Assembly (NCBI RefSeq): GCF_028714775.1
Contig: NZ_JAQTLS010000009.1
Span: 1-64,000, forward strand
Reading direction: 5' to 3'
Length of the DNA: 64,000 nt
Origin: Thiothrix sp.
GTDB lineage: Bacteria; Pseudomonadota; Gammaproteobacteria; Thiotrichales; Thiotrichaceae
The translations under genes were made by a program, and so were the position numbers. The notes below the pieces were generated by a model. The model was given only the letters and a program-made list of their open reading frames with translations, was not told the DNA's origin and made no database searches. Every line of letters starts with the position of its first letter. Positions within the stretch are counted from its first letter, which is position 1. Below, piece after piece: positions 34,843 to 49,970 of this stretch.

Positions 34843-34932
34843 GAGGATGGTTTTATTCTTTTCTGGGTGTGCAACATGGAAGGCAGTATGCCAGAATCCC
34901 CCTCATGAATCTTGCATGAGAGGACGAACTGC

Positions 34933-35361
34933 ATGAATGTGAAAAGTATGCGTGGGCGCAAGCCGTTGGAAGCCGGTTTCTCGTTAACAGAATTGATGAT
35001 TGTTATCGTGATTATCGGGATTTTGCTGGGGATTGTATTCAGTAATATGGATGTGTTGGATAAGGCTAACTCCCAAAAAGCCGAACAAGAAATCAGTAAA
35101 TTTAAGATCAATCTGGAATCGTACCGCGCAGATAATGGCGCTTTCCCGCCATCGGGGGCGTTAAATGCCTTGGTTTCCAATCCGGGGAATGCACCCCGCT
35201 GGCGGCAGTACATGAAAAGCCTGCCGAAAGACCCGTGGGGTAGCGATTACCGTTACCTGAATCCGGGTTCGCACAATAATGAAATGGATGTTTACAGCAT
35301 CGGGCCGGACAAGCGTGCAGGTACTGACGATGATATTGGCAGTTGGCGGCTGGAACGGTAA
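34933..35361 (+). CDS. gspG: Type II secretion major pseudopilin GspG
   Basis: The 142-residue pseudopilin has a short basic leader and the prepilin peptidase site before FSLTELMIVIVIIGILLG (mature Phe, Glu5 conserved). The C-terminal GspG core has PPSGALNALVSNPG, LPKDPWGSDYRYLNPG and the calcium-binding-type end MDVYSIGPDKRAGTDDDIGSW. AGAGGA lies eight bases before the ATG. It leads an overlapping gspGHIJ set. Confidence 0.94.
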   Translation: MNVKSMRGRKPLEAGFSLTELMIVIVIIGILLGIVFSNMDVLDKANSQKAEQEISKFKINLESYRADNGAFPPSGALNALVSNPGNAPRWRQYMKSLPKDPWGSDYRYLNPGSHNNEMDVYSIGPDKRAGTDDDIGSWRLER

Positions 35362-35863
35362 ACCAGCCCGGCAAGCGGGTTATTCCTTGCTGGAAATGCT
35401 GATCGTCATTACGGCGGTTGGCATCTTGTACACGCTCGTGGGTTCCCTGTTGGGGTTGTCGGTGTCTGATCCCTTGAATGAAGAGGTGGCGCGGCTACGC
35501 GAGCGAGTCAGTCTGGCGCAGGACGAAAGCGTGGTGCGTTCGCAAGCGTTAGCGTTGGGTTTTGGTGATAAGGGCTACGCTTTTTTTACCCAAGGTGCTG
35601 ATAAGGATGGTAAGCCGCAATGGGAACCGATTAAAGATGATGACCTGTTACGCCAATACAAATTACCGGATGGATATAAGCAGGTGCTTGATTTGCAGGG
35701 GCAGGCTGTGGTTTTAGATGCATTGCATCCGCAGGTATTCATTTTGCCAACGGGGGAAATGACGCCGTTTGAATGGCATTTGCGCTCCACGCCCGAACGC
35801 GAAGGTGTGCTGAAATTTGATGCGCAAGGGCGGCTTCAGGATGCGGTTCATGAAACGGGTTAA
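35330..35863 (+). CDS. gspH: Type II secretion minor pseudopilin GspH
   Basis: The ~177-residue minor pseudopilin has a leader ending QAG before YSLLEMLIVITAVGILYTLV. The remainder fits GspH (RVSLAQDESVVRSQALALGF, then a beta-rich C-terminal part ending GVLKFDAQGRL). The start is uncertain: the ATG at 35330 lies inside gspG, and a TTG at 35336 or a distant upstream ATG are alternatives. Overlap on both sides indicates tight coupling. Confidence 0.82.
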   Translation: MILAVGGWNGKPARQAGYSLLEMLIVITAVGILYTLVGSLLGLSVSDPLNEEVARLRERVSLAQDESVVRSQALALGFGDKGYAFFTQGADKDGKPQWEPIKDDDLLRQYKLPDGYKQVLDLQGQAVVLDALHPQVFILPTGEMTPFEWHLRSTPEREGVLKFDAQGRLQDAVHETG

Positions 35864-36263
35864 GGCGCGTCAGGCGGGTTTCAACTTGATCGAAGTCATG
35901 TTTGCCTTGTTATTGCTGGGGCTGGTGATCAGTATCAGTGTGGAAACCAGTGCGGGTGACATTGCGGGTTACAAACGTATGCGGGATGGTTCATTCGCCC
36001 GTTGGGTGGCACTGAACCAGGTCGCAGAAGTGCAATTGTCCAAGGAGTTTCCTGCCGAGGGTAAAGAATCGGGGGAGGCTGAGATGGGTGGTATCGACTG
36101 GAAGTGGCAGCAGGAAATCGTATCAGCCCCGAATGAGGATGACTTGCGCAAGATTCAGGTTTCCGTTTATCAGGCGGGGCAGCCGGATGAATTGGTCTCT
36201 ATGCAAGTGGGTTATGTGGCTAATCCGCAGCCCAAGCCCCGGGCAAAGGTTCAAGCCCCATGA
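35850..36263 (+). CDS. gspI: Type II secretion minor pseudopilin GspI
   Basis: The 137-residue protein has the leader MKRVKARQAG before FNLIEVMFALLLLGLVIS, the prepilin cleavage context. The downstream part has the GspI core (WVALNQVAEVQL, DWKWQQEI) and a Pro/Lys-rich end. The ATG at 35850 has AGGA eight bases before it and overlaps the gspH stop region; an ATG at 35841 is an alternative. Confidence 0.88.
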   Translation: MKRVKARQAGFNLIEVMFALLLLGLVISISVETSAGDIAGYKRMRDGSFARWVALNQVAEVQLSKEFPAEGKESGEAEMGGIDWKWQQEIVSAPNEDDLRKIQVSVYQAGQPDELVSMQVGYVANPQPKPRAKVQAP

Positions 36264-36856
36264 GAAAGGTGCGTGGTTTCACTTTGCTGGAATTGATGAT
36301 TGCGATGGCGGTTTTTGCCGTGTTGGTGATGCTGTCGTACAGCTCCATCTCGTTGTTGCTGGATTCTAACCGTAACAATAGTGGGCGGCAGGCCGAGTTG
36401 CAGCAGTTGCAAAAGGCTTTGCTGTTTGTGGAACGTGATATTCATCAACTTGCCGACCGTGCGGTGAGTACGGAGTATGGGGAGGCGACGCCCGCTTTTC
36501 ATACGCCAACAGATGCGGGTGTGTTGCTAGAGTTAACCCGAGGGGGTAACCCCGACATGGCTTGGGAATTGCGCACCTCTGGGCAAATGCGCAGCACCCT
36601 CCAGCGGGTGCGTTACGTGCTTGAAGATGACAAGTTGTTGCGGCAGAGCTGGAATCTGCTGGATCATCTGGAGACTGACCCGCCTGTCAGTGTTATTCTG
36701 CTGGAACAGGTCAAGTCGCTGAAGTTGCGTTTTAAAGGGGAAAAAGCTGATTGGGCCGAGGTATGGGAGGATGTGGGCTTGCCGAAAGCGGTGGAGTTGA
36801 CGCTTGATCATGAAAACCTCGGGGAAATCAAGCGGATTTTCATCGGTTATTTATAA
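36260..36856 (+). CDS. gspJ: Type II secretion minor pseudopilin GspJ
   Basis: The 198-residue protein begins MRKVRG before FTLLELMIAMAVFAVLVML, the prepilin cleavage site. It continues with the GspJ pattern QKALLFVERDIHQLADR, then RYVLEDDKLLRQSW and PKAVELTLDHENLG. It overlaps gspI by 4 bases (ATGA). No gspK follows: 164 non-coding bases lead to the RND genes, so the rest of the secretion machine must be encoded elsewhere. Confidence 0.9.
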   Translation: MRKVRGFTLLELMIAMAVFAVLVMLSYSSISLLLDSNRNNSGRQAELQQLQKALLFVERDIHQLADRAVSTEYGEATPAFHTPTDAGVLLELTRGGNPDMAWELRTSGQMRSTLQRVRYVLEDDKLLRQSWNLLDHLETDPPVSVILLEQVKSLKLRFKGEKADWAEVWEDVGLPKAVELTLDHENLGEIKRIFIGYL

Positions 36857-37020: not shown

Positions 37021-38163
37021 ATGAGCATAAGAAAAAATGCGCTTTGGTTGCTGGTCTTGGTATCGGGCGCATACCTTTTTCCTGTCGCACAGGCTGCCGA
37101 AATAGTCAGGGTTGAGGCGGCTGTGTCGCAGTCCCAGTCCGTGATGGGGAGCACTGTCATTCCCTATAAAGAAGTCACTTTATCTGCCCAGATACCAGGG
37201 GTGGTTAAGCTCGTTGCTGGGGAGGTGGGCTCCAGCTTTAAGCAGGGTGATGTTATCGTCCAAGTGGATGAGTCCCAAGTTCAGGCCAAGCGCAATGCTG
37301 TGCTGGCGCAGATCGCTACCGCGCAGGCGGTGTTGCAGAATTCCCAAGCCCAATACACCCGCGAACTGGTTTCCCCGCGCAGCAAGGATATTGGTGCAAT
37401 GCCGGGCATGGGTTTGCCTGCGATGTTCGATATGTTCGCGGTACGCCCGTTTGCCGACTCTATGATGAACAATTATGACTCGGACATGGGGCGCTACACC
37501 GATCTGATGGGCAGTGCCTCGGGTGTGTCCCAGTCCCAATCCAATTTACAGCAGGCCATGTCGCAATTGCAGGAAATTGATGCGGCGGTGCGTGATGCCA
37601 AGTCGATTGCCCCGTTTGAAGGGATTGTGTTGGCGAAAATGGTTGAGGTGGGGGATACCGTCCAGCCCGGTCAGCCAATGATCAAATTTGGTTTTGTTAA
37701 GTACAAGCGTTTGCAGGCGGATGTGCCATCCGGGTTGGTGGGGAATCTGGATAAGGATATGGTTGTCCCTGTACGGATCGACGGTAATGTCAGTACAATG
37801 GCGAAAGTTTCACAAATTTATCCCATTGCCGATCCTAGCCGCCACACGGTTACGGTGAAATTTGATTTGCCGGTTGATGTGGTGGCTGCTCCCGGCATGT
37901 ACGCTGAAATTTATTTGCCTGAGCGGAGTAAGGGTGATGCCAAGGTGGCAATCATTCCGCGCAGTGCCTTGCTGAGCGGGCGGAGTTTGCCGAGCGTGTT
38001 AGTCGTCAAGGATGACAATACTTCAGAGCTGCGTTTGGTACGGTTAGGTTCTGACCAAGGTGAAGGTATGGTTGAAGTGGTTTCGGGTGTCAGTGCTGAT
38101 GAACGGATTGTGGATCACCCTCCCGCCGCCGTTTCATCCGGTTGGATGCCGCCCACAAAATAA
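37021..38163 (+). CDS. RND efflux periplasmic adaptor subunit
   Basis: Membrane-fusion protein of 380 residues linking an RND pump to an outer-membrane channel. It has a signal peptide ending PVAQA, a lipoyl half (IPGVVKLVAGEVGSSFKQGDVIVQVD), a helical hairpin region with a Met/Gly/Pro-rich insert (about 120-165; AMPGMGLPAMFDMF), then KSIAPFEGIVLAKMVEVGDTVQPGQP and beta-barrel domains. The Met-rich insert in the hairpin is unusual and could bear on metal or partner specificity. It is 30 bases upstream of the pump gene. Confidence 0.93.
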   Translation: MSIRKNALWLLVLVSGAYLFPVAQAAEIVRVEAAVSQSQSVMGSTVIPYKEVTLSAQIPGVVKLVAGEVGSSFKQGDVIVQVDESQVQAKRNAVLAQIATAQAVLQNSQAQYTRELVSPRSKDIGAMPGMGLPAMFDMFAVRPFADSMMNNYDSDMGRYTDLMGSASGVSQSQSNLQQAMSQLQEIDAAVRDAKSIAPFEGIVLAKMVEVGDTVQPGQPMIKFGFVKYKRLQADVPSGLVGNLDKDMVVPVRIDGNVSTMAKVSQIYPIADPSRHTVTVKFDLPVDVVAAPGMYAEIYLPERSKGDAKVAIIPRSALLSGRSLPSVLVVKDDNTSELRLVRLGSDQGEGMVEVVSGVSADERIVDHPPAAVSSGWMPPTK

Positions 38164-38193: not shown

Positions 38194-41100
38194 ATGAACG
38201 AATCTCCACACAATACATCTCCCCATCCGCAGCACAATTTGGGCATGGCTGGTGCTATGGCCAAGGCGTTTATTACTTCGCCGCTCTCGCTCTTGTTGCT
38301 GTTGGCTTTTTTTGCCGTGGGTACGTTGGGGATGTGGATCACGCCCCGTCAGGAAGACCCGCAGATTTCCGTGCCAATGGTGGATATTTTTGTCCGCTAC
38401 CCCGGTGCTTCCGCGCAAGAAGTGGAAAACCTGATTTCCCGCCCGCTGGAAAGCATCATGTCAGAAATGACGGGTGTGGATCACGTTTATTCCTATTCTG
38501 CCCGTGAAGAGTCGATGGTCACGGTGCAGTTCATCGTCGGGCAACAACTTGAGCCGTCACTGGTCAAGTTGCACGACAAGCTTGAATCCAATAAAGACCG
38601 TATTCCCATTGGGGCAGCGCCGCCACTCGTCAAGCCTAAGGGGGCGGATGATGTGCCCTTGGTAACACTGACCCTGTGGTCGAATGCGGTGGATGATGCC
38701 AACCTGCGCTTGGTGGGGCTGGATGTGCTACAAAGCCTGCGGGAAGTGGCAAATACCAGTCAGAGCTTCATCGTTGATGGGCGGCACGAAGAATTACGGG
38801 TAGAAATCCTGCCGGAACGTTTGGCGACCTTCGGGGTATCGCTGGAACAGGTGGCGGGCGCGATCCGCATGGCGAATTCCGAGCGCAATACCGGGGCAGT
38901 CGAACCCGATCAGCGCACTTTCAAGGTTTACAGCGGTGCTTTCCTGAATTCTGCTGAAGACGTGAAACGCCTGATGGTGGCGGTCATTGAGAACCGTCCG
39001 GTTTATGTGCGGGATGTGGCGACGGTAACGGAAGGCCCCAGCGACGCGAGCCGTTCAGTGGGCTACTACACCGGGCCGGGAGTGCGTGAGTACGGTTTAC
39101 TGCATAAGATTAAAGCCTTCTTCTTCGGCGAAAAAGTCGAAGAGCAAGCCAAAGAAGTCGCAGACAATGCCCCAGCGGTAACGCTGGCGATTGCTAAGAA
39201 ACACGGCACTAACGGTGTGGATGTCGCCAAAGCAGTGTTGGATAAGCTGGAGACCCTGAAAGGCCGGGTTATCCCTGACAATGTGCATGTGAATGTTACC
39301 CGTAACTACGGCGAAACGGCAGATGCCAAGGTTAGCGAACTGATTTTCAAACTGTTCGTGGCAACGGGCATCGTGACGGTGCTGGTATGGTTCTTCCTCG
39401 GCTGGCGTGCGGCTGGCGTGGTGCTGATTGTTATCCCAGCGGTTATTACCACCACGGTATTCTCTGCGTGGATACTGGGAATGACCATTGACCGGGTATC
39501 GTTGTTTGCGCTGATTTTCTCTATTGGGATTTTGGTCGATGACGCGATTGTGGTGGTGGAAAACATCTACCGGCGCTGGTTGCTGATTGAAGATACCGAT
39601 GTGGAAACCGCTGTCGATGCGGTGCGCGAAGTGGGCAACCCTACTATTCTGGCAACCGGGACGGTCATTGCAGCTTTGCTGCCGATGGGGTTCGTCAGTG
39701 GCATGATGGGGCCGTACATGCTGCCTATCCCGTTGTTGGGGTCGGTGGCGATGGTGATTTCTTTGTTCGCCGCGTTTGCTTTCACCCCGTGGCTGACTAA
39801 CCGTCTCAAGCCTTCCTTGCACAGTTTGCGGGAAGCGGCGGAGAAAGAGCATAAACAAGCTGCGCGGATGGAAAAACTGTTCCGTGGCCTGATTATCCCG
39901 TTGGTGTCAGACCGTAAAAAAGGCCGGTTATTCTTGCTGAGTATCGTGGTGGTGTTTTTTGCCTTCATGATGCTGTTTTACCCGATGAAGGCGGTGCGCG
40001 TAAAAATGCTGCCGCTGGATAACAAGCCTGAATTCAACGTGGTGCTGAACATGCCGGAAGGCACGGCGATGCCCGTGACGGCTAACCTGTTGCATAGCAT
40101 GGCGCTCAAATTAAAGGCTATCCCAGAAGTGACCGCGCTCCAGACCTACACGGGTACGGCGTCACCGTTCAACTTCAACGGTTTGGTGCGCCACTATTAC
40201 CTGCGCCAACAGCCGTGGCAGGCCGATATTCAGGTGCAATTGACTGACAAGCACGACCGTCACCGCAGCAGCCACCAAATTGCGGTGGAAGCCCGCGCCT
40301 TGCTGCAACCGTTACTGAAAGGTTCTGGCGGCAAGTTGCAAGTGGTTGAAATGCCACCTGGCCCGCCTGTGCTGCAATCGGTGGTGGCGGAAATCTATGG
40401 GCCGGATGCCAACACCCGCCGCCAGATTGCTACCGACATGACCAAGATGTTCGAGCAAGCCGAGAACTTGGATGATGTTGATAATATGATGGAAGAGGAT
40501 CACGACATCCTGCGTTTCATCGTCGATTCTGACAAGGCGCAACGCAACGGTATTACCGCCGAAGATGTCAACCGCACGCTGGAAATGGCGATGGGTGGCT
40601 TCATTCTGGGCGACATCAAGAAAAATGCGTTGATCGACCCGACCCGCATTGTCATGCAGGTTCCGCTGAGTGCGCGTTCACAGATTTACCGCTTGTCGCA
40701 ACTGCCCGTTACCAACCGCACCGGGCAATTTGTGCCTTTGCATGAGTTGGGGACGTTCGTTTTCGACAAGCAGGATAAACCGCTTTACCGCAAAGATTTG
40801 CGTTCGGTTGAATTTGTGACGGCAGAAACGGTTGGGCGTCTGGCAGCTCCTGTGTATGGTCAGGGGCAAATCGAAACCATGCTGGCGGAAGCCAATGATG
40901 GCAAAGGCTACCGTACCCCGGATGGCACACGTTTGGTGGATGAAGCCTACTGGCTGAAATCACCCCAAGGCGTGGAAGGCAAATCGGCCTTTGAATGGGG
41001 CGGGGAATGGACAGTGACATGGCAAACTTTCCGCGACATGGGGATTGCGTTTGCTGCGGCACTGGTGCTGATTTACATGCTGATCGTGGCGCAGTTCGGT

Positions 41101-42072
41101 AATTTCACCTTGCCTGCGATCATTATGGCACCGATTCCGCTGACCTTGATCGGGATTGTGCCGGGGCATTGGCTGATGGATGCGGAATTTACCGCCACTT
41201 CCATGATCGGTTTCATTGCGCTAGCGGGGATCATTGTGCGTAACTCCATCTTGCTGGTGGATTTTGCGCGGGAAGCGGTGGCGAGCGGTGAAACGGTGCT
41301 GGAAGCGGTGATCCATTCCTGCGAAGCACGTACCCGCCCGATTGTGATTACCGCATTGGCGTTGTTCGGCGGTTCGATGGTGATCTTGTCTGACCCCATT
41401 TTCCAAGGGATGGCTGTATCGCTGATCTTTGGGGGTGCGGTTGCTACGCTGCTGACCTTGCTGGTCATCCCGTTGGGTTGCATCAGTGCAGGTCGTTCAA
41501 TGGGGTCTTGCCCGATTGGGGGTGAACCGCCCGATGGTTCCGGTGGCGGGCAAGGGAGCGCAGGTCAAGCTACTAAACCCGGTAAAAGCATCGGTCAAAT
41601 TGGCAAAGAAGTTGTTACTTACACAGGTATGTACGGCGTTTCGCTGGGTAAAAGCTTTGTGCAAGGCGTCGTAGGTTGGTTTGCCGCAGGCGGTAAGTTA
41701 CTGCAACAACGCAAAAAGCGTAAGCACGAAAAAGCTGAGCGTGAACGTCAAGCCGCAAGGGCGCGGGTAGAGGCGGCGGCTAAGCCCAAGCCAGCTAAGC
41801 CAGTCGTTGCTGAAGTAAAAAGTGCTCCGCCGGTCGTATCTGCACCTGTGGCAGAGGTGGACGTGCCCGCCGTAGCCGCTGTGCCGGAAACCCCAGAGGT
41901 GGAAGTTCCAGTAGCCGATGTGCCAGCAATCCCTGAGGTGGAAGCACCTGTAGCCGATGCGCCGGAAGCCGTTGAGGCGGAAGTTTCCGCCGATGTACCG
42001 GAAACGCCAGAGGTGAAGGAACGCAAAAAATCCCCAGCTAGACGCGGAATAAAACTTAAGACGGATATTTAA
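38194..42072 (+). CDS. RND efflux pump permease with ~200-residue C-terminal extension
   Basis: Proton-driven inner-membrane efflux pump of the AcrB/hydrophobe-amphiphile type. The proton-relay pair Asp449-Asp450 lies in ILVDDAIVVVENIYRR. The two halves each have six helices and large periplasmic loops. At 1292 residues it exceeds the usual ~1030-1070. From about residue 1095 it continues with a Gly-rich linker, a hydrophobic stretch (MYGVSLGKSFVQGVVGWFAA), a Lys/Arg/Glu helix (about 1170-1195) and Pro/Val/Glu/Ala repeats (PETPEVEVPVADVPAIPEVE). It ends in a basic tail (KSPARRGIKLK). The tail should lie in the cytoplasm after TM12. The next gene starts 12 bases on. Confidence 0.92.
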   Translation: MNESPHNTSPHPQHNLGMAGAMAKAFITSPLSLLLLLAFFAVGTLGMWITPRQEDPQISVPMVDIFVRYPGASAQEVENLISRPLESIMSEMTGVDHVYSYSAREESMVTVQFIVGQQLEPSLVKLHDKLESNKDRIPIGAAPPLVKPKGADDVPLVTLTLWSNAVDDANLRLVGLDVLQSLREVANTSQSFIVDGRHEELRVEILPERLATFGVSLEQVAGAIRMANSERNTGAVEPDQRTFKVYSGAFLNSAEDVKRLMVAVIENRPVYVRDVATVTEGPSDASRSVGYYTGPGVREYGLLHKIKAFFFGEKVEEQAKEVADNAPAVTLAIAKKHGTNGVDVAKAVLDKLETLKGRVIPDNVHVNVTRNYGETADAKVSELIFKLFVATGIVTVLVWFFLGWRAAGVVLIVIPAVITTTVFSAWILGMTIDRVSLFALIFSIGILVDDAIVVVENIYRRWLLIEDTDVETAVDAVREVGNPTILATGTVIAALLPMGFVSGMMGPYMLPIPLLGSVAMVISLFAAFAFTPWLTNRLKPSLHSLREAAEKEHKQAARMEKLFRGLIIPLVSDRKKGRLFLLSIVVVFFAFMMLFYPMKAVRVKMLPLDNKPEFNVVLNMPEGTAMPVTANLLHSMALKLKAIPEVTALQTYTGTASPFNFNGLVRHYYLRQQPWQADIQVQLTDKHDRHRSSHQIAVEARALLQPLLKGSGGKLQVVEMPPGPPVLQSVVAEIYGPDANTRRQIATDMTKMFEQAENLDDVDNMMEEDHDILRFIVDSDKAQRNGITAEDVNRTLEMAMGGFILGDIKKNALIDPTRIVMQVPLSARSQIYRLSQLPVTNRTGQFVPLHELGTFVFDKQDKPLYRKDLRSVEFVTAETVGRLAAPVYGQGQIETMLAEANDGKGYRTPDGTRLVDEAYWLKSPQGVEGKSAFEWGGEWTVTWQTFRDMGIAFAAALVLIYMLIVAQFGNFTLPAIIMAPIPLTLIGIVPGHWLMDAEFTATSMIGFIALAGIIVRNSILLVDFAREAVASGETVLEAVIHSCEARTRPIVITALALFGGSMVILSDPIFQGMAVSLIFGGAVATLLTLLVIPLGCISAGRSMGSCPIGGEPPDGSGGGQGSAGQATKPGKSIGQIGKEVVTYTGMYGVSLGKSFVQGVVGWFAAGGKLLQQRKKRKHEKAERERQAARARVEAAAKPKPAKPVVAEVKSAPPVVSAPVAEVDVPAVAAVPETPEVEVPVADVPAIPEVEAPVADAPEAVEAEVSADVPETPEVKERKKSPARRGIKLKTDI

Positions 42073-42084
42073 TCTGGAAGGAAA

Positions 42085-43011
42085 ATGATGATGAAAATGT
42101 TTAATAAGAAACAACTGGCTGTTGCCGTTGCCACGGTTGCCACTTCGGCAAGCTTGGCATTGCTCAGCGCCAATGTTAGGGCTGAAGACAATTTGCCACC
42201 GCCGCCGCCCGGCCCCTTTATTGCTGAAGGTGCGCAAGCAGCGCCAGTCGGTGATGCTTCCGCAGTGGCTCCAGCAGCAGTTGCGCCTGCGGCAACGGCT
42301 GCTCCTGCCATGGCTGCCCCGGAAGTTGCCGCAGCTCCTGCTGCGCCAGCCGCCCCAGCAGTGACACTGGCTACACCAGAAATGCCTGCTGCGCCAGCCG
42401 CACCAGTGGCAGAAGTAAAAGCGCCTGAGGCTCCTGTAGCTCCAGCGGCAGCAGAAGTGAAAGCGCCTGAAGCCCCGACCGCGCCAGTAGCAACAGAAGC
42501 GAAGGCCCCTGAAGCACCAGCCGCGCCGGAAATGCCTGCCATGCCGGACAGTATTAAAGCACCAGAGGCTTCCGCAGCGGCAGCAGTACCAGCTATCCCT
42601 GAAGCCCCCGCAGTTCCTGTTGCACCTGAAATGCCTGCCGTTCCAACTGCACCTGAAGCGCCAGTTCAACCGCAAGCCAGCAAAGCACCTGAAATGCCAG
42701 CAGCTCCACAAATGCCGTTACCGCCACCGGGGGCTTATTATTACTTGTATGCTATCCCGATGCCTGCGATGCCAAACAACGTGGGGCAGGGTGGTCAAGG
42801 TGGCATGATGCCGCAGCAAGGGCAATACATGGGGCAACCGATGCAAGGCCAGCCTGATCCGCGCATGATGATGCAACATCAGCAGCACCAAGGCCAAGGC
42901 TACGGCAGGGTTCCGCCACCGGGCTACGGTCAAATGCCGCCAATGCCAAACGGTCAGCAAGGGCAACCAATGCCGCCTGCGCCGGAAATGCAAGCGCCCG
43001 TTCAACAGTAA
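42085..43011 (+). CDS. Exported Pro/Ala/Glu-rich low-complexity protein
   Basis: No family recognised. The 308-residue protein has a cleavable signal peptide (ending ANVRA). A PPPPPGP stretch precedes about 170 residues of Ala/Pro/Glu/Val repeats with recurring EVKAPEAP and PEMPA units. Residues ~215-308 change to a Met/Gln/Gly/Pro-rich tail (MPAMPNNVGQGGQGGMMPQQ). It is predicted to be disordered and extended in the periplasm or beyond. It shares its compositional style with the tails of the pump upstream and of the proteins at 43674 and 44540. AAGGAAA precedes a cluster of ATGs; the exact start is uncertain by up to four codons. Confidence 0.8.
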   Translation: MMMKMFNKKQLAVAVATVATSASLALLSANVRAEDNLPPPPPGPFIAEGAQAAPVGDASAVAPAAVAPAATAAPAMAAPEVAAAPAAPAAPAVTLATPEMPAAPAAPVAEVKAPEAPVAPAAAEVKAPEAPTAPVATEAKAPEAPAAPEMPAMPDSIKAPEASAAAAVPAIPEAPAVPVAPEMPAVPTAPEAPVQPQASKAPEMPAAPQMPLPPPGAYYYLYAIPMPAMPNNVGQGGQGGMMPQQGQYMGQPMQGQPDPRMMMQHQQHQGQGYGRVPPPGYGQMPPMPNGQQGQPMPPAPEMQAPVQQ

Positions 43012-43030
43012 TGATGAAGTGAGTGTTGGG

Positions 43031-43654
43031 ATGATTACGCTGATTGGGAACCTTAAAGGTGGAACCGGGAAAAGTACCGTAACGTTCAATTTGGCGTTGT
43101 GGGTAGCAACCCGCCACAACAAGCACGTTGTCGTGTATGATTTGGATCCACAGGCAACCACCTCTGATGCGTTTGAAATCCGCGCAGATGAAGGTTATTT
43201 GCCTGCCATTGCACCGCTTACCACGGCGGCAACGCTGGGGACAGAAGGGAAAAATACCGAAGTCCTCGTTGATATGGGCTTAGCCGATATGGCATCACTG
43301 GAAACCGCAGTACGCAAAGCTGACCGGATTCTTGTGCCAGTCGCACCCAGTCAGGCCGATGTCTGGTCTACACAGCGTTTCCTGAAAATGGTTAGCGACA
43401 TCCGGGGCGGGCAACCCGTGGAAATACTCGGGGTCATCAATCGCGCAGACACCCATCACGCAGTACGTGAAACTGCCGAAGCGGCGGAAGCCATGCAAAT
43501 GCTGGGCAACATACGCCTGCTCGAACCACGCTTATACATGCGCACCACTTATCGGCGCTCTTTCAGCGAAGGTTTGGCAGTATTTGAAATGGAACCCCGT
43601 TCTAAGGCAGCAGCAGAAGTCGAAGAATTGGGACGGATACTTTATCCGGTATAA
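43031..43654 (+). CDS. ParA/MinD-family ATPase (orphan)
   Basis: The 207-residue deviant-Walker-A ATPase begins ITLIGNLKGGTGKSTVTFNL with the signature Lys near the N terminus, and has VVVYDLDPQATTSDAF (Walker A') and VLVDMGLADMASLE (Walker B region). ParA proteins position DNA, protein complexes or organelles on the nucleoid or membrane by ATP-driven dimer cycles. No ParB or centromere repeats are adjacent. The closest partners are low-complexity membrane proteins, more like cargo-positioning orphans. A GTG at 43019 would add four residues. Confidence 0.9.
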   Translation: MITLIGNLKGGTGKSTVTFNLALWVATRHNKHVVVYDLDPQATTSDAFEIRADEGYLPAIAPLTTAATLGTEGKNTEVLVDMGLADMASLETAVRKADRILVPVAPSQADVWSTQRFLKMVSDIRGGQPVEILGVINRADTHHAVRETAEAAEAMQMLGNIRLLEPRLYMRTTYRRSFSEGLAVFEMEPRSKAAAEVEELGRILYPV

Positions 43655-43673
43655 AACATAAAAGGAGATTCAG

Positions 43674-44318
43674 ATGCATATTTTACGTTGGTTAATGAAA
43701 CATCCACTCATTTTGGCTTGGGTGTTGGCGTTGACCGCCATCCTGCTGAACTTTGGTCTGGGCGGCACGGCTAATAATGGTTATAAAATTGCCGCTGGGC
43801 ATAAGCCAGCCGCTGCTGAACAACAGGCCGCCGCTGCGACAGCAGCACCAGCACAAGCCACCGCGCCTGCTGTTACCGCAGAAGTAGCGCCCGCTGCTGT
43901 TCCTGCACAAGTTGCAGCACCTGCCGTGACCGCAGAAGCAGCACCACAAGCCGCTGCACCTGCTGTTACCGCACCAGCCCAGCCGCAAGCGGTTGCCGGT
44001 GAAGTTGCGGGCGCAAGCAGTGAAGCTGATTTACTGCGTGCCGCACGTGAAGCCTTCTGGAGTAACGAACTGGATAACGCTGTTGGTTTTTACACATCCT
44101 TGTTGAAGCAAGCCCCTGATTCCGTGGAATACAAAGGCGAACTCGCCAATGTTTACTGGAAGCAAGGCAATGCCCAGCAAGCAGCAACGCTGTTCGCGGA
44201 CATCGCGCCACAGGTTGCAGCCCAAGGCCGGACGACGGAAGCACTCAACATGAAATTGTATGTTGATATGGTTGACCCGGAATTGGCGAAAAAAATTGAC
44301 GCAGGAATGAACAAGTAA
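43674..44318 (+). CDS. Single-pass membrane protein with Ala/Pro-rich linker and TPR-like domain
   Basis: No named family. The 214-residue protein has an N-terminal membrane anchor (about 10-30; HPLILAWVLALTAILLNFGLG), then about 80 residues of Ala/Pro/Val/Gln repeats (TAPAVTAEVAPAAVPAQVAA). The C-terminal ~100-residue helical domain is TPR-like: AAREAFWSNELDNAVGFYTS, YKGELANVYWKQGNAQQAATLF. With the N terminus inside, the TPR part would be periplasmic. A strong AAGGAG precedes the ATG; the gene is 19 bases after the ParA gene. Confidence 0.8.
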   Translation: MHILRWLMKHPLILAWVLALTAILLNFGLGGTANNGYKIAAGHKPAAAEQQAAAATAAPAQATAPAVTAEVAPAAVPAQVAAPAVTAEAAPQAAAPAVTAPAQPQAVAGEVAGASSEADLLRAAREAFWSNELDNAVGFYTSLLKQAPDSVEYKGELANVYWKQGNAQQAATLFADIAPQVAAQGRTTEALNMKLYVDMVDPELAKKIDAGMNK

Positions 44319-44382
44319 TTTTTGTTAGTATTACTTGTGACAGGCAGGGTTAGGGGTTTGACATGACCCTTCCCTGCCTTTA
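44311..44382 (+). terminator. Two tandem hairpins after the TPR-like gene
   Basis: First, ACAAGTAAT 44311-44319 pairs with ATTACTTGT 44330-44338 across the stop codon. Second, GGCAGGG 44343-44349 pairs with CCCTGCC 44372-44378, with an inner AGGG/CCCT, and is followed by TTTATT. The second looks like an intrinsic terminator and would split the cluster into two transcripts. The rest of the 221-base spacer to 44539 holds one 8-codon ORF (44440-44466) with a plausible ribosome site, too short to call. Confidence 0.65.
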
Positions 44383-44539
44383 TTGTCGGATAAAAGCATA
44401 AAGAACATTTTTACCATCCAAAGAAAAACAGGAAGATTTATGACGAGCGCCTTGCATAAAGCGTGAGTATTGCATTCACAGTTAGGGTTAAAGCTGGTGG
44501 AACGGATGTTTCAGGCAGCACCCGCGACAGGAGCCATGT

Positions 44540-45349
44540 ATGGAAAAAATCGAAAAGCCCTCAGACATCAATGAGGTGGAGCAGAACTTGCATTACGTTG
44601 AAGATGAGTTACAGAACTTTGAGGAAAGGCAAGTCAACGTAACGCGCACTTTGCAGATGATTGTCTATCCAGCCATGGTTGCCTTCATCATCCTCTGTGC
44701 TTACGGTTTCTTTTTGATCCAATCCTTGACCACAGACGTACATCGGCTGACGGAAACGATTGCGGGCATGAGCCAAACTGTCCACACCAATATGGGTAGC
44801 ATCTCCGGTACGATGAATACCATGAACCAGCAGATGTCTAGTCTGGTGGATTCCACCGATCAGATGACTAACAATATTGTGGGAATGAACACCAGTACGC
44901 AGGACATGGCGGGCAACATCCAGCAGATGAATGCCTCCACCCAGAACATGGCGGTTTCAACCTACAATATGCAGCATGACATGTGGTCGATGAACAAGAA
45001 CATTTCCGGGCCGATGAAAATGTTCAATAAGTTCAGCCCGTTTGGTAACGACAAAACCACGCCCTATGTGGTTCCGCCACCTGCGGCTACCGCCACACCG
45101 TATTACAACAATTATTATGGATGGCAGCAGCCAGCCGTTGGGGTACAAGTGCCAGCACCTGTTGCGCAACAACAACCCCAGCAGCCGCAACCTGCCGCCG
45201 CCGTAGCTGTGGAGCCAGTCGCTGTGCCTCCCGCAGACAATGCGGCAACCGTTCCGGCAACACCCACCGATGCAGCAACCGCCAAAGACGGGCGCAGTGC
45301 TGCGGACACATTACAAGAACCTGTACTTGCGAGTGCAACAAGAGGATAG
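44540..45349 (+). CDS. Coiled-coil membrane protein with methionine/asparagine heptads and Pro/Gln-rich tail
   Basis: No named family. The 269-residue protein has a cytoplasmic N-terminal acidic helix (about 1-35) and one membrane helix (about 42-65; MIVYPAMVAFIILCAYGFF). A long helical region with 7- or 11-residue spaced Met/Asn/Thr (about 70-165; MNTMNQQMSSLVDSTDQMTN) resembles chemoreceptor or DUF-type coiled coils. A Tyr/Pro/Gln/Ala-rich tail follows. AGGAG lies six bases before the ATG. It ends two bases before the dynamin-like GTPase ATG, so the two are made together. Confidence 0.8.
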   Translation: MEKIEKPSDINEVEQNLHYVEDELQNFEERQVNVTRTLQMIVYPAMVAFIILCAYGFFLIQSLTTDVHRLTETIAGMSQTVHTNMGSISGTMNTMNQQMSSLVDSTDQMTNNIVGMNTSTQDMAGNIQQMNASTQNMAVSTYNMQHDMWSMNKNISGPMKMFNKFSPFGNDKTTPYVVPPPAATATPYYNNYYGWQQPAVGVQVPAPVAQQQPQQPQPAAAVAVEPVAVPPADNAATVPATPTDAATAKDGRSAADTLQEPVLASATRG

Positions 45350-45351
45350 CT

Positions 45352-46806
45352 ATGACGCCAGCCAAGCGAATGGAGCAACGCCTGAAGCGTTTGCAGGAGC
45401 ATCTCAAGCGAGAAAACCCGGTACTGGTTGAAGCCGTTAACCAATACCGCGAATTGGATGCCGTTGCCCAAAGACTTGGCTTGTTGACTGCCGGGGAATC
45501 TTACGCCACCCAGATTTCATGGTGGCCTTTGGTTTCCATTTTGGGGACATTCTCTGCCGGTAAGTCCAGCTTCATTAACACCTACTTGGGCGTTGACCTG
45601 CAACGTACTGGCAATCAGGCGGTGGATGACCGCTTTACCGTGATTACCTTTAGCCCCGATGGGCAAGTGCGCACCTTGCCGGGTGTGGCACTGGATGGCG
45701 ACCCGCGTTTCCCGTTTTATCAGATCAGCGAGGAAATCGAACACGTTTCCGCTGGTGAAGGGGCGCGGATTGATAACTACCTGCAAATGAAAGTAGCCCC
45801 CAGTGAAAAGCTGCGCGGGCGCATCCTGATTGACTCGCCGGGGTTTGACGCTGACGAACAACGCAAGGCCACCCTGCGCATTACCGACCACATTATCGAA
45901 CTGTCGGACTTGGTGTTGGTATTCTTCGATGCCCGCCACCCGGAACCGGGCGCGATGCAGGACACGCTGGAGCACCTAGTCAAAGGTTCGATACGCCGTA
46001 CCGATGGCAGCAAATTCATGTTCATCCTCAACCAGATTGATACCTCCGCGCGGGAAGACAATCTGGAAGACATCGTGTCTTCGTGGCAGAAAGCCTTGGT
46101 GCAGCAAGGGTTGTCGGCGGGGAGTTTCCACATCCTGTTCAACGATAAACTAGCAGTGCCTGTGCCGGATGAAAACGTGTGGGCGCGTTATGTCGCCAAG
46201 CGTGATACCGATTACAAGCGCATCATGGCACGCATAGATAGCGTCAATATTGAGCGCGTTTACCGCATCGTCGGCTCAATGGAATCGCAAGCCAACCAGA
46301 TTGAACAACAGGCTGTCCCGCGCTTGCGCGAGGCATTGCAGCGTTGGAAAGTGCAAGTACTGGTCGGCGATGTCGTCGGGCTAGGTTCTTTGGCGGTTGC
46401 CTTGCTGGCGATGAGCATTGAATTCGGTTACTGGGAAGGCTTGCTGTTTAACCCACCGTGGTTGGCTTCTTTGCGGGGGAATACCTTCTTTACGGGCGTG
46501 AGTATTGCCATCCCGGTATTGATTGCGGTGGGGCTGCATTTCCTGATCCGTCAGAAATTGGCAAAGCGCATGGCAGAACGCCTGAGCCAGAAAGAGCCTT
46601 ACGGTAATTTGGCGGCGGCTTTCAAGAAAAGCACGCGCTTTTGGCGCAGCATCTTCCAAACCTCACCAGCGGGTTGGAACCGGCGCACCCGTCGACGGCT
46701 GGATGGTATCCGCGATGCTACCGACCGTTTTGTCCAATATTTGAATGACAAGTTTACCAGCCCGTCCGGTGGCAAAGATTCTGCCGCGCCTGGTACGTCG
46801 GCCTAA
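45352..46806 (+). CDS. Dynamin-like/septin-type membrane GTPase
   Basis: The 484-residue protein has an N-terminal helical segment and a large GTPase domain: G1 GTFSAGKSSFIN (about 65-76), switch-I region NQAVDDRFTVITF, G3 DSPGFDADEQ, and G4 FILNQIDTSARED. A helical region with a hydrophobic hairpin follows: VVGLGSLAVALLAMSIEFGYW and TGVSIAIPVLIAVGLHFLI (two membrane segments). The C-terminal part is basic (KKSTRFWRSIF, NRRTRRRLDGI). This layout fits bacterial dynamin-like proteins, which remodel or fuse membranes. The ATG at 45352 (AGAGGA just upstream) is chosen; the open frame extends far upstream only as an out-of-frame shadow of the previous gene. Confidence 0.88.
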   Translation: MTPAKRMEQRLKRLQEHLKRENPVLVEAVNQYRELDAVAQRLGLLTAGESYATQISWWPLVSILGTFSAGKSSFINTYLGVDLQRTGNQAVDDRFTVITFSPDGQVRTLPGVALDGDPRFPFYQISEEIEHVSAGEGARIDNYLQMKVAPSEKLRGRILIDSPGFDADEQRKATLRITDHIIELSDLVLVFFDARHPEPGAMQDTLEHLVKGSIRRTDGSKFMFILNQIDTSAREDNLEDIVSSWQKALVQQGLSAGSFHILFNDKLAVPVPDENVWARYVAKRDTDYKRIMARIDSVNIERVYRIVGSMESQANQIEQQAVPRLREALQRWKVQVLVGDVVGLGSLAVALLAMSIEFGYWEGLLFNPPWLASLRGNTFFTGVSIAIPVLIAVGLHFLIRQKLAKRMAERLSQKEPYGNLAAAFKKSTRFWRSIFQTSPAGWNRRTRRRLDGIRDATDRFVQYLNDKFTSPSGGKDSAAPGTSA

Positions 46807-46821
46807 CACGGTACACCCTGT

Positions 46822-47862
46822 ATGCGTTTGAATTGGAAACAATGGATGCCAGCCCTCGTGCTGGCCTTGTTAGTGGGGGCGTGGCTGCTGTTGGGTGGCG
46901 CTCAGCGCCAGTCCGGGATGCAGCTTGAAGGCATGGCGGGGATGGCATCGTGGCACGCGACCATCAGCGACCCACCGGCGGGTCTGGATGAAACGGCACT
47001 CAGCGCGGGCATTGCCCAAGCCTTTTTCCACAGCAGCAAACTGATTGCGACGTGGGATAAGGGGTCAGAAATTTCCAACTTCAATGCGCATCAGGGTGAG
47101 GATTGGTTCCCGGTTTCCGCTGAATTGGCGAAGCTGGTGACAAGCACCTTGCAGTTCAGCCAGCAAAGCAATGGGGTTTACGATGTCACTATCCGCCCAT
47201 TGATTACTTTGTGGGGTTTCGGTTCGGCAGTCGATAAAAAGGGTGTCGTGCCGGATCAGGCCGCGATTGATGCCGCCCGTGCAAAAGTGGGCTACCAGAA
47301 ATTACAGGTACGCCTTGATCCTCCCGCCTTGCGTAAAACCCAGCCAGACCTTCTGGTGGAATTGGCTTCCGTCGCTGATGGCTTTGCCGCCGATCAGGCC
47401 GGGCAGTATCTGGAATCGCTGGGTGTCCACAATTACATGGTTGAAATTGCCGGTGAAATCCGTACCCGTGGGCTTAGTCCGCGTGGTGATGCCTGGCAGA
47501 TTGCAATTGAAAAGCCGCAGGATAACGGGCTTGCCATCCAAAAGGGCGTGCGTTTAGAAAATGCAGGCTTGGCAACATCGGGCGATTACCACAACTTTTT
47601 CACCAAAGACGGCAAACGCTATTCGCACACGATTGACCCGGCAACCGGGTATCCCGTTGAGCACAAACTGGCATCGGTGTCGGTGTTGGCAGCGGAAACA
47701 ACCATGGCAGACGGTTACGCCACCTTGCTGATGGCACTGGGCGAAGACAAGGGCAAGGTGTTCGCCGAGCAACACGGGCTTGCCGCGTTCTTTATCTGGC
47801 GTAGCGGCGGCAGCTTTGCGACTTATGCAACTCCGGCGTTCCAGAAGGTGTTGATGGATTAG
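46822..47862 (+). CDS. apbE: FAD:protein FMN transferase (ApbE family)
   Basis: ApbE attaches FMN covalently to Thr/Ser of target flavoproteins such as NqrB/NqrC and RnfG. The 346-residue protein has an N-terminal membrane anchor (about 10-26) without a lipobox Cys. ApbE motifs are DVTIRPLITLWGFG, VADGFAADQAGQYLESLG, the flavin site MVEIAGEIRTRG, LATSGDYHNFF, YSHTIDPATGYPV and ETTMADGYATLLMALG. It is 15 bases after the dynamin-like gene and may be co-transcribed. No flavinylation target (NQR, RNF, FMN-bind) is visible in the window. Confidence 0.93.
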   Translation: MRLNWKQWMPALVLALLVGAWLLLGGAQRQSGMQLEGMAGMASWHATISDPPAGLDETALSAGIAQAFFHSSKLIATWDKGSEISNFNAHQGEDWFPVSAELAKLVTSTLQFSQQSNGVYDVTIRPLITLWGFGSAVDKKGVVPDQAAIDAARAKVGYQKLQVRLDPPALRKTQPDLLVELASVADGFAADQAGQYLESLGVHNYMVEIAGEIRTRGLSPRGDAWQIAIEKPQDNGLAIQKGVRLENAGLATSGDYHNFFTKDGKRYSHTIDPATGYPVEHKLASVSVLAAETTMADGYATLLMALGEDKGKVFAEQHGLAAFFIWRSGGSFATYATPAFQKVLMD

Positions 47863-47933: not shown

Positions 47934-48836
47934 ATGCCCAAAGCCTTTATCAGTTATGCCCGCGATGGCAGCCACGGCGAAAACCTTGCCGCCGAAATCC
48001 AGCAGCAGTTGCAAGCGGCTGGCTTTGCTGTTTTCCGTGATGTCATCGGGCTGAAACCCGGTGATCCGTGGTTCCACAAGTTAGACCTCGAATTGGAAAG
48101 CAGCCATGTGATGGTATTGGTCTTGTCGGAAAAAGTCCGAACATCCACATGGGTTCCTAGCGAAGTGGATATGGCGAAAGAACTCGGTATTCCAATTGTT
48201 CCGGTGCTGGCAGAAAAGATGATACGCCCGACATGGATTCGGCATTTGCAGGCACTGGATTTTTGTGGGGCACGGGATTGGCGGGTATTACTGGAGGCGA
48301 TTGGGCATCATGTGGGAGAACCCTCACCCCCCAACCCCCTCTCCCGTGAAACGGGCGAGGGGGAGCGAGAGGTTGCTGTTTTAGCCCCTCGCCCGCTTGG
48401 CGGGAGAGGGGTTGGGGTGAGGGAAAACAGCGTGCCAGGTCGCTACATTATCCACAACAACGGCACGGTGACGGATACCCAAACCAAGCTAATGTGGAAA
48501 CGGTGCAGTGAAGGGCAAAGTGGAGCAGATTGTAGTGGTGAACCTGCCAGTTTTACATGGGATGACGCCATGTCGATGTTCGGTAAGGGGGGCAGCTTCG
48601 CTAGCTACAATGATTGGCGGATGCCAACCATTGAGGAGTTGAAAACGCTTGTGGATAACAGCCAAACGCCGACGATTGACCAAACAGCGTTTCCAGATAC
48701 TCTAGCTAGCTGGTATTGGTCGTCCACAGAAAATGGTGCGTCCTTCGCTTGGTATGTTGACTTTTACGACGGTGACGGCGATTGGGACAACCGCTACGTT
48801 GTTCTCCCTGTGCGGTTAGTCCGTTCTGGTCAGTGA
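47934..48836 (+). CDS. TIR-domain protein fused to Lcl/DUF1566 domain
   Basis: The 300-residue protein has an N-terminal TIR domain (about 1-125; KAFISYARDGSHGENLA, then STWVPSEVDMAKELG with candidate NAD-cleaving Glu77). The C-terminal DUF1566/Lcl domain (about 165-300) has NGTVTDTQTKLMWKRC, NDWRMPTIEELKTLVD and YWSSTENG. Bacterial TIR domains often hydrolyse NAD in antiphage systems or act as scaffolds; DUF1566 is a lectin/FGE-like fold often on cell surfaces. The linker (about 128-163) is encoded by a palindromic repeat element. No ribosome site is evident before the ATG. Confidence 0.85.
   Translation: MPKAFISYARDGSHGENLAAEIQQQLQAAGFAVFRDVIGLKPGDPWFHKLDLELESSHVMVLVLSEKVRTSTWVPSEVDMAKELGIPIVPVLAEKMIRPTWIRHLQALDFCGARDWRVLLEAIGHHVGEPSPPNPLSRETGEGEREVAVLAPRPLGGRGVGVRENSVPGRYIIHNNGTVTDTQTKLMWKRCSEGQSGADCSGEPASFTWDDAMSMFGKGGSFASYNDWRMPTIEELKTLVDNSQTPTIDQTAFPDTLASWYWSSTENGASFAWYVDFYDGDGDWDNRYVVLPVRLVRSGQ
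48321..48423. repeat. REP/BIME-like palindromic element inside the TIR gene
   Basis: Two inverted units: the left arm begins CCCTCACCCCCCAACCCCCT (48321-48340) and the right arm ends in the near-complement GAGGGGTTGGGGTGAGGG (to 48423). Each unit folds into its own small hairpin (CCCGT/ACGGG; CCCGC/GCGGG). It is read through in frame as a Pro/Arg/Gly/Glu-rich linker. The same motif recurs at 54374 and 62932. Confidence 0.85.
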
Positions 48837-48914: not shown

Positions 48915-49970
48915 TTAATACGACACTATCAAATCCTTGATTTCATGCACTTCGGTGCGGATGCGCCGCATCACCGGCAGCAGTTCGAGGAACACCGCGA
49001 ACAGTTCCGGGTCGAGGTGCGAACCCGCCATGCTGCTCATCAGGGCAATAGCATCTTTTTCACACATGGCTTTTTTGTAGACACGCTCATGCACGAGGGC
49101 GTCGTAAATGTCCACGATGCTGGTGATGCGGGCGGTAATGGGGATGTTTTCGCCCTTGAGTTCACGCGGATAGCCGGAGCCGTCCCATTTTTCGTGGTGG
49201 CACAAGGCGATTTCTGCCGCCATGTCGAGCGCGGGGATGTTGGCATCTTGCAGCATTTTTGCGCCGATTTCGGTGTGGCGTTTCATGATGGAAAATTCAA
49301 CGTTGGTGAGCTTGCCTTTTTTCAGCAGGATTTTGTCGGGGATGCCGATCTTGCCGAGGTCGTGCATGGGTGCGGCAATGCGGATGTCGTCAATTTGCTG
49401 GGTAGGCCAGTTGAGCGCTTTTGCCATCGCGGCGGCGTAAAGCCCGATGCGGCGTACATGAGCGCCGGTTTCTTCGTCGCGGTAGCTGGTAACGCTGACC
49501 AATTTGATGGCGATTTCTTCTTCGCGCTGTTTGATCTTGATGGTGCGTTTTTGCACTTCGTTTTCGAGCTTTTCTTGGGTCAGCAGGCCATTGCGCACTT
49601 GTTGCAGGCGGCTGACTTCTTGGCGGTATTTTTCCCCTAAGTTTTGCAGGAGCAGAACGGCGTGGTCGTCTACCCACACGGCGGTGGCTTCGAGTGCCAG
49701 TTCGTTGCCGAGTTCGTCGGTTTCGATCCACGAGCCGGAAGCCAGCGGAGTAGCGAGGTGTTCGTGCCAGTGCTGTTCCGCATCATCCATGAAACAGGTC
49801 AGGTAGGGGAATAGCTCGGGCAGGTCGCAGGTTTGCGGGTAGGAGGATTTGCCCAAGAAAAACACCAGCCATTCGGGGGCGGGGTTGTGCAGGGTGAAAC
49901 ACCCGTTGGGTTCGCGCACGAAGACCACGATATTGAGCGAGTCGTAGATGGCGGATAACAGCTTAGTCAT
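48915..49970 (-). CDS. HD-GYP domain cyclic-di-GMP phosphodiesterase
   Basis: The 351-residue protein has an N-terminal PAS-like domain (about 1-110), a coiled-coil linker (about 112-155) and an HD-GYP domain. That domain has His203-Asp204 in PMHDLGKIGIPDK, the downstream metal ligands CHHEKWDG and the GYP triplet at 266-268. HD-GYP enzymes hydrolyse c-di-GMP to GMP. The linker and PAS suggest control by a partner or ligand. It overlaps the small-GTPase gene by 8 bases and is last in a four-gene operon, so the GTPase may govern its activity. Confidence 0.92.
   Translation of the reverse strand: MTKLLSAIYDSLNIVVFVREPNGCFTLHNPAPEWLVFFLGKSSYPQTCDLPELFPYLTCFMDDAEQHWHEHLATPLASGSWIETDELGNELALEATAVWVDDHAVLLLQNLGEKYRQEVSRLQQVRNGLLTQEKLENEVQKRTIKIKQREEEIAIKLVSVTSYRDEETGAHVRRIGLYAAAMAKALNWPTQQIDDIRIAAPMHDLGKIGIPDKILLKKGKLTNVEFSIMKRHTEIGAKMLQDANIPALDMAAEIALCHHEKWDGSGYPRELKGENIPITARITSIVDIYDALVHERVYKKAMCEKDAIALMSSMAGSHLDPELFAVFLELLPVMRRIRTEVHEIKDLIVSY

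Follow-up and report, generated by a model that had tools for sequence, protein, structure and literature searches.

In carboxysome positioning, an McdA-like ATPase works with a soluble McdB-type partner. Another bacterial inclusion, the internal sulfur globule, is described as generally periplasmic and, in purple sulfur bacteria, Beggiatoa and Thiothrix, as enveloped by protein (PMC10386293; papers are cited here by their PMC numbers, and what is said of each applies to the excerpts used), and the Ectothiorhodospiraceae, which form external globules, are said to be without sulfur globule proteins, or Sgps (PMC10892978). The excerpts that describe the coat proteins leave unexplained how a cell positions its globules, keeps their number, passes them on and anchors them in the periplasm. 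Here we analyse a locus in a stretch of 64,000 nucleotides from Thiothrix sp. (contig NZ_JAQTLS010000009.1, positions 1 to 64,000; hereafter the window), which encodes a ParA-type ATPase and a single-span coiled-coil protein (CC) together with a resistance-nodulation-division (RND) permease and its HlyD-type adaptor, an exported Pro/Ala-rich protein (A), a tetratricopeptide repeat (TPR) protein and a dynamin-superfamily GTPase. We think it somewhat probable (roughly 0.55) that thiotrophic proteobacteria have a locus for organising sulfur globules and that these genes are its version in the window. The association of the cluster with sulfur-globule genes is, by sequence comparison, well supported; each mechanical step proposed below is one that we infer.

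The sequence-only reading of this DNA had placed five genes in one locus at 42085-46806, and their coordinates, order and common + strand are confirmed: A (308 aa; 42085..43011), ParA (207 aa; 43031..43654), the TPR protein (43674..44318), CC (44540..45349) and the GTPase (484 aa; 45352..46806). Directly upstream on the same strand lie the periplasmic adaptor of the RND pump (37021..38163; Pfam HlyD_D23 and HlyD_3 above cut-off, NCBIfam RND_mfp 127.5 bits) and the permease itself (38194..42072; ACR_tran 455.8 bits). The intergenic gaps are 12 bases (RND-A), 19 (A-ParA, counted to the conserved start), 19 (ParA-TPR), 221 (TPR-CC) and 2 (CC-GTPase). The ParA start was set at 43031, which is common to relatives, the mechanical open reading frame (ORF) beginning at a GTG at 43019; the mechanical ORF of the GTPase begins at 45121, inside CC, and the gene was taken as 45352-46806. 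By hydropathy, A (where it is signal-like), TPR, CC and HlyD have a single membrane segment apiece, the GTPase has two and ParA has none. Promoter and terminator scans gave no higher signal than shuffled sequence.

The link to sulfur globules is carried by the co-occurrence of CC with the sulfur globule protein (SGP) family PF17228. Among 321 genomes of the class Gammaproteobacteria, the CC profile matched 71 at E 1e-3 (66 at 1e-10), PF17228 matched 48 at E 1e-3 (47 over its cut-off), the GTPase was found in 82, and DsrA in 97 over cut-off (104 at E <1e-30, partial hits included). Forty-six of the 48 SGP-positive genomes were CC-positive at E 1e-3, against 71 of 321 overall (p 8e-35), and the odds ratio of 228 for this pair was the largest among the overlaps compared (CC with SGP 46 genomes, GTPase with SGP 44, CC with Dsr 60, GTPase with Dsr 54). 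When the five CC hits weaker than 1e-10 were dropped, 45 of the 48 were still CC-positive, with 66 of 321 overall; at genus level, all 34 SGP-positive genera had CC, against 52 of 243 overall (p 1e-28). DsrA was present in 60 of the 71 CC-positive genomes, and the window genome has it as well (E 6.9e-183). The two genes also lie close together: SGP is 5 kb or less from CC in at least 13 of the 46 genomes that have both (rows picked by eye; 9 of these 13 SGP hits are over the cut-off). In six relatives, genes assigned to PF17228 by Pfam stand within the cluster itself; three Gly/Asn/Trp-rich cluster proteins of class relatives match the family (6.5e-15, 7.4e-10 and 1e-5, the last at the cut-off), as do three proteins (1.3e-17, 1.9e-8 and 2e-7) in a second Pfam set of eight SGP-like candidates.

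Twenty neighbourhoods from the class were fetched, with the CC ORF picked at 16, and among those listed the genes for RND, exported Pro-rich proteins, ParA, TPR, CC and the GTPase occur in varied arrangement and completeness, often with additional genes for exported Gly/Asn/Trp/Tyr-rich proteins, DUF302 proteins, and DUF4412 or MlaC-like proteins. Outside the window's family, the cluster often also includes a DUF302 protein that has a membrane segment at its N-terminus (L120, L121, L122, L124, L157 and L161; L121 tested by Pfam, the rest by home-made profile or by eye).

Named loci, taken as the best 80 of 548 confirmed GTPase matches, extend the picture. Thirty-two of the 80 titles bear the genus Sedimenticola, Thiodiazotropha, Thiohalobacter, Thiocapsa, Thiogranum, Thiohalomonas, Thiolapillus or Lamprocystis, all eight of which we take to be sulfur oxidisers, and most other titles are gammaproteobacterial, one is Magnetococcales and another carries the label Deltaproteobacteria. 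Near the GTPase in these best 80 we found HlyD at 45, RND at 43, CC at 39 and ParA at 35; among the 36 loci with at least 9 kb upstream, the counts are 30, 30, 23 and 28. At loci of Sedimenticola, Thiodiazotropha and Thiocapsa, the GTPase gene frequently runs divergently to HlyD-RND while staying close by, and in Thiocapsa roseopersicina DSM 217 HlyD, RND, ParA and CC all lie beside it. CC was present in 25 of 30 named genomes searched whole, including T. roseopersicina DSM 217, Sedimenticola, Thiodiazotropha and the Escarpia endosymbiont. Exported proteins with YRFRP/YRFRG repeats are encoded between RND and ParA at several loci (L139, L148, L157, L161, L208 and L215; Sedimenticola, Thiodiazotropha and Thiocapsa) and may form a further coat-protein family.

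A phylum-wide search with CC returned 41 of 299 genomes at E 1e-10 or better, namely the window genome and 40 outside its class. One of the 40 (G420) shares its CC coordinates and E-values with the genome of the named locus L201 (Magnetococcales bacterium), and our guess is that the remaining 39 belong to the Magnetococcia. At 16 fetched loci of this second class we counted CC at 16, ParA at 15, RND at 10, HlyD at 4 and, by a home-made profile, SGP-like genes at 8, whereas neither the GTPase nor TPR was found near CC at any of the 16. These and the other counts of cluster genes at fetched loci are from six-frame searches, because greedy ORF picking overlooked some genes where loci are GC-rich (the CC ORF at 4 of 20 class loci and 3 of 16 second-class loci). 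The second-class permeases are 61-65% identical to that of the window in the four rows listed. One Magnetococcales locus (L261) combines ParA-CC with a divergent HlyD-RND, and a GTPase homologue lies on another contig of that genome (L201). The part that crosses class borders is thus ParA-CC, often with RND and SGP-like genes, and the GTPase is linked to the cluster in gammaproteobacteria only, as far as seen. Sulfur globules have been reported in magnetotactic cocci (PMC6783814; PMC5088516).

ParA and CC lie on the same strand wherever both are present (15/15 second-class, 29/29 family and 26/26 named loci), adjacent in the second class with a median gap of 4 bases, and with median gaps of 958 in the family and 783 at the named loci, and we infer that CC is the partner of ParA. 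The ATPase itself (Pfam CbiA and AAA_31 above cut-off) is well conserved, with a mean column identity of 73% over 15 aligned family members, in all of which the deviant Walker A box with its signature lysine (KGGxGKST) reads N-x-KGGTGKST. In a PDB search its nearest solved relative was ParF of TP228 (4dzz, E 1.8e-9), followed by Soj, a P1-type ParA and then McdA (6non, E 2.5e-5, ninth of 18 rows). That a plasmid ParF is the closest solved structure, and that ParA_partition (NF041546) is the best NCBIfam family, would suit an ordinary DNA-partition ParA whose unrelated neighbours have been kept by chance synteny. However, the NCBIfam score of 121.2 bits falls below the cut-off of 180, and these partners turn up again, amid different flanks, in other families and in the second class; because of this conservation across classes, we regard that explanation as very improbable.

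CC gave only sub-threshold Pfam matches. It has one membrane segment at residues 42-60, and its AlphaFold model is a single helix from 9 to 155 (147 residues; block-mean pLDDT 82-97 over residues 11-150; pTM 0.32), followed by a disordered tail, which is Pro/Tyr-rich. Conservation is highest in the membrane segment (consensus LIVYPxLxAFIILAAYGFYLI) and in a PMxxMNxFMPW motif close to the C-terminal end. The basic residues that immediately precede the span point to an orientation with the N-terminus in and the C-terminus out, and in the model the helix past the span, of about 95 residues and roughly 14 nm, could reach across much of the periplasm. Second-class CC proteins (L248, L249, L252 and L258) carry a C-x-x-C(S) motif N-terminal to the membrane span, possibly metal- or redox-related, and the CC of L131 has a C-x-x-C in the same N-terminal part, before the span.

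Within the window's family (Thiotrichaceae), the GTPase was found in 57 of 60 genomes, in 60 of 63 of a later full draw and in all 46 good-quality genomes. Forty family loci with longer flanks were taken from genomes with a GTPase match, chosen by eye for long contigs and spread, some contigs ending early; the GTPase is present at 40, TPR at 39, ParA and CC at 31 each, and HlyD and RND at 28 each. Gene order, which the sequence-only reading had proposed to survey, is kept across the family, and neither a loss of order nor constantly differing partners, which would have spoken against that reading, was observed. The unit is larger than its five genes, as HlyD and RND also belong to it. At seven family loci (L057, L058, L060, L065, L066, L075 and L076) HlyD, RND, ParA and CC are all gone, TPR and the GTPase being retained at a site that looks the same by ORF pattern; an A-like protein is present at six of the seven (at L065 the ORF picker took the other strand). 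These four genes thus tend to be absent as a group, with L071 (HlyD-ParA-GTPase) and L056 (ParA not found) as exceptions; at L064, ParA is reduced to a 65-residue BLAST match. Both ParA and CC are present in 28 Dsr-positive genomes and one Dsr-negative genome, and neither in three Dsr-positive and four Dsr-negative ones (Fisher p 0.003; 40 family loci, few independent losses), loci with only one of the two genes (3 Dsr-positive, 1 Dsr-negative) being excluded. The trend within the family fits a globule locus, and its exceptions speak against a strict link.

The GTPase scores 51.6 bits for Dynamin_N against a cut-off of 27 and carries a two-segment membrane hairpin (336-354 and 381-399). Its predicted structure (pLDDT 83.1, pTM 0.75) consists of a G domain and helices 274-357 and 378-410, which bear both segments. 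With this model, Foldseek returned EHD4 as the best match (1.1e-11, query TM-score 0.49), then IniA, a Campylobacter dynamin-like protein (DLP), mitofusins, BDLP and SynDLP at lower TM-scores; over the 50 rows shown, identities are 11-16% and query TM-scores 0.26-0.49. The canonical G4 motif of the dynamin superfamily is T/N-K-x-D, and at least 90% of 30 aligned sequences of this GTPase have N-Q-x-D. Homologues occur in L201 (Magnetococcales) and L206 (labelled Deltaproteobacteria). We considered the GTPase as the defining gene of the system and rejected it, since it occurs more broadly and is not near ParA-CC in the second class. The GTPase is not an obligatory partner, being absent near ParA-CC at 16 of 16 second-class loci and standing without ParA or CC at 18 of 20 fetched Dsr-negative loci. 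An MlaC-like protein follows directly after the GTPase in one group (L128:6858-7460, tested by Pfam; L132:11048-11632, by eye), which hints at lipid transport.

The solitary occurrence of the GTPase in Dsr-negative gammaproteobacteria would be expected if the genes served the envelope or cell shape in general (septum, filament sheath, membrane stress) and only accompanied sulfur oxidisers. So would the seven family loci without ParA, CC, HlyD and RND, where TPR and the GTPase persist, in most cases together with an A-like protein. We hold such a module to be improbable: the distribution of CC follows that of SGP very closely, relatives have SGP genes within the cluster, and none of 116 loci outside the family has nearby the pseudopilin-like genes that flank the locus within it. 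Those genes (34912..36856, + strand; labelled gspGHIJ from reading the sequence, without a family search) adjoin 28-33 of the 40 family loci, and, because they are restricted to the window's family (tblastn 1e-6), a role in type II secretion was dropped and they are not counted as members of the system.

A number of observations nevertheless weigh against a globule-organising locus. The co-occurrence p-values ignore ancestry; five of the eight SGP-like candidates in the second Pfam set had no match; and PF17228 is found in just 4 of 40 CC-positive second-class genomes (0 of 40 CC-negative ones). Five of the 30 named GTPase-bearing genomes are without CC (L206, L194, L216, L199 and L163). In the family, the Dsr-positive G020, G024 and G050 (the last with a partial DsrA) lack ParA and CC at this locus, the only place searched, and the Dsr-negative G036 carries both. 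Of the Dsr-negative class genomes, 28 have the GTPase, 10 of these being CC-positive, and at 18 of the 20 Dsr-negative gammaproteobacterial loci fetched it has neither ParA nor CC alongside, some flanks being short; the two exceptions are L225 and L236, and these 20 loci represent 20 of the 28 genomes, six of the remaining eight being CC-positive. Lastly, PF17228 has no match in the window genome at E 1e-3. Across L217-L235, many Dsr-negative gammaproteobacteria have a member of the GTPase family in unrelated neighbourhoods, with no ParA or CC alongside.

Linked or co-occurring SGP genes were found in relatives and not in the window genome itself, for which the globule link is indirect, since PF17228 is not matched there and A has no Pfam family. 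A has a signal-like segment at 11-29, 46% Ala+Pro, a PPPPPGPF motif and a Tyr/Pro/Met/Gln-rich C-terminal part, and was rejected as a PF17228 sulfur globule protein for want of a Pfam match. Its motif, PPP(P)xGP(F/Y), is found in 24 of the 72 ORFs that immediately follow this RND but in only 6 of 2337 others; because of this enrichment and the order conserved across the family, the five-gene arrangement is more than chance. For Thiothrix caldifontis, six sgp genes have been predicted (PMC10386293), and since PF17228 nevertheless finds none in the window genome, the coat proteins of organisms like T. caldifontis may lie outside the PF17228 model, with A as a candidate. SgpD of Allochromatium vinosum is likewise Pro-rich and exported, its gene standing beside that of a hydrophobic/amphiphilic exporter (PMC10386293), which may be a parallel to the present locus. 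The TPR protein has an N-terminal membrane segment, an Ala/Pro linker and a C-terminal TPR domain (TPR_19, 26.6 bits against a cut-off of 25) that is probably periplasmic.

The low-complexity tail that had been noticed on the upstream pump is real: the RND C-terminus carries about 190 residues rich in Ala/Pro/Val/Glu and containing Lys/Arg, and a tail of at least 60 residues was found in 80 of 86 ORFs of relatives (median 212). By analogy with AcrB, the tail is presumably cytoplasmic. The Asp pair of transmembrane segment 4 (TM4) is present, and an Arg occupies the position of the lysine that AcrB has in TM10. The recurrence of HlyD and RND (28 of 40 family loci; 45 and 43 in the best 80 of 548 named matches), their reach into the second class (RND at 10 of 16 loci, with the identities given above) and the conserved tail speak for the main rival explanation, a thiotroph envelope transport complex in which RND-HlyD would move polysulfide, hydrophobic sulfur compounds, coat proteins or lipids, ParA-CC would position the pump, and the tie to globules would be metabolic, not structural. 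On the other hand, no outer-membrane channel was found among the eight proteins scanned with Pfam (a scan that took in neither the remaining ORFs of the window nor any other part of the genome), Arg replaces the TM10 lysine, RND was undetected at 6 of the 16 second-class CC loci (some contigs being short), and exported coat-type proteins are encoded within the cluster. We consider a transport complex unlikely, though less so than a shape module.

Other genes flank the locus in the window. ApbE (FAD:protein FMN transferase; 46822..47862, + strand; 264 bits) begins 15 bases after the GTPase and is a neighbour in part of the family; as it adjoins the GTPase at only 18 of 40 family loci, we rejected it as a member, and it probably lies outside the system. 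A protein at 47934-48836 (+) combines what we take to be a TIR-like N-terminus and a DUF1566-like C-terminus, separated by a repeat-like stretch. Next to an HD-GYP-like protein (48915-49970), a small Rab/Roc-like GTPase (49963-50466, -) lies beside a 492-aa protein with a coiled coil and an OmpA-like C-terminal region (50478-51956, -); these three labels come from reading the sequence, with no family search.

If the genes do organise sulfur globules, ParA would form an ATP-dependent gradient in the cytoplasm, borne on the nucleoid, with the short cytoplasmic N-terminus of CC as its partner, and the conserved C-terminal part of the long periplasmic CC helix would contact the globule coat or the pump complex, so that ParA could position, space or segregate globules and their membrane pockets via CC. 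HlyD-RND with its tail, the periplasmic TPR domain and A might make up an envelope complex where globules are built, coated or emptied, and in gammaproteobacteria the GTPase might constrict or stabilise the inner-membrane invagination that holds the globule. The proposal of the sequence-only reading, that such a system sets the place or shape of a membrane site, for instance around inclusions, fits these findings, the inclusions most likely being sulfur globules; its alternative of a site at septa finds no support. We put forward tentatively, as possible rather than probable, the fuller proposal that a cytoplasmic ParA controls a periplasmic organelle through a rigid trans-membrane CC adaptor, with the GTPase shaping the pocket. 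The locus would then encode a machine dedicated to the biogenesis and cross-envelope partition of sulfur globules, with a ParA-CC core common to gammaproteobacterial thiotrophs and Magnetococcales. If true, ParA-type positioning would extend to cargo beyond the inner membrane, and a family of bacterial dynamin-like proteins would gain a likely physiological setting in thiotrophs. The ParA-CC-RND set near coat genes also offers concrete candidates in cultivable organisms such as Thiocapsa.

The locus appears, provisionally, to be undescribed. We found no literature linking the sulfur globule with a ParA or RND gene cluster, in a search whose whole-word matching misses papers with 'globules' only; the one paper found to join sulfur globule and dynamin states that SUP05 is without dynamin. 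The excerpts of PMC10241942 (Halothiobacillus ParA/MinD) and PMC5088516 do not mention such a locus, and the A. vinosum sgpC neighbourhood is not supported as the same locus, Alvin_1322-1324 having other functions (PMC4213376). Excerpts of PMC3368242, PMC11267869 and PMC6509183 were also consulted.

Compared with known systems, the locus shows both similarities and divergences: (i) With HAE-type RND pumps of the AcrB/MexB kind, the window pump shares ACR_tran, the HlyD adaptor and the TM4 Asp pair, but differs in its long tail, its TM10 Arg and the lack of an outer-membrane channel among the proteins scanned. (ii) With EHD ATPases, mitofusins, BDLP, IniA and the Campylobacter DLP pair, the GTPase shares a G domain, a long helical stalk and predicted membrane segments at the stalk tip, but it forms a sequence family of its own, which in thiotrophs is tied to ParA-CC-SGP. 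(iii) As in A. vinosum, whose SgpA-D (PF17228; SgpD) are the described precedent, relatives of the window have PF17228 genes, here inside the cluster; however, A is not a member of that family, and the Sgps are presented as coat proteins, with no mention of an ATPase, a GTPase or a membrane adaptor in the excerpt used (PMC10386293). (iv) Like McdA-McdB, the locus has an orphan-type ParA with a partner gene nearby and a cellular inclusion as its likely cargo; in contrast to that system, its ParA is nearer to ParF than to McdA, its likely partner CC is a membrane-spanning protein with a 147-residue helix, and the proposed cargo would lie in the periplasm, across the inner membrane from the ATPase.

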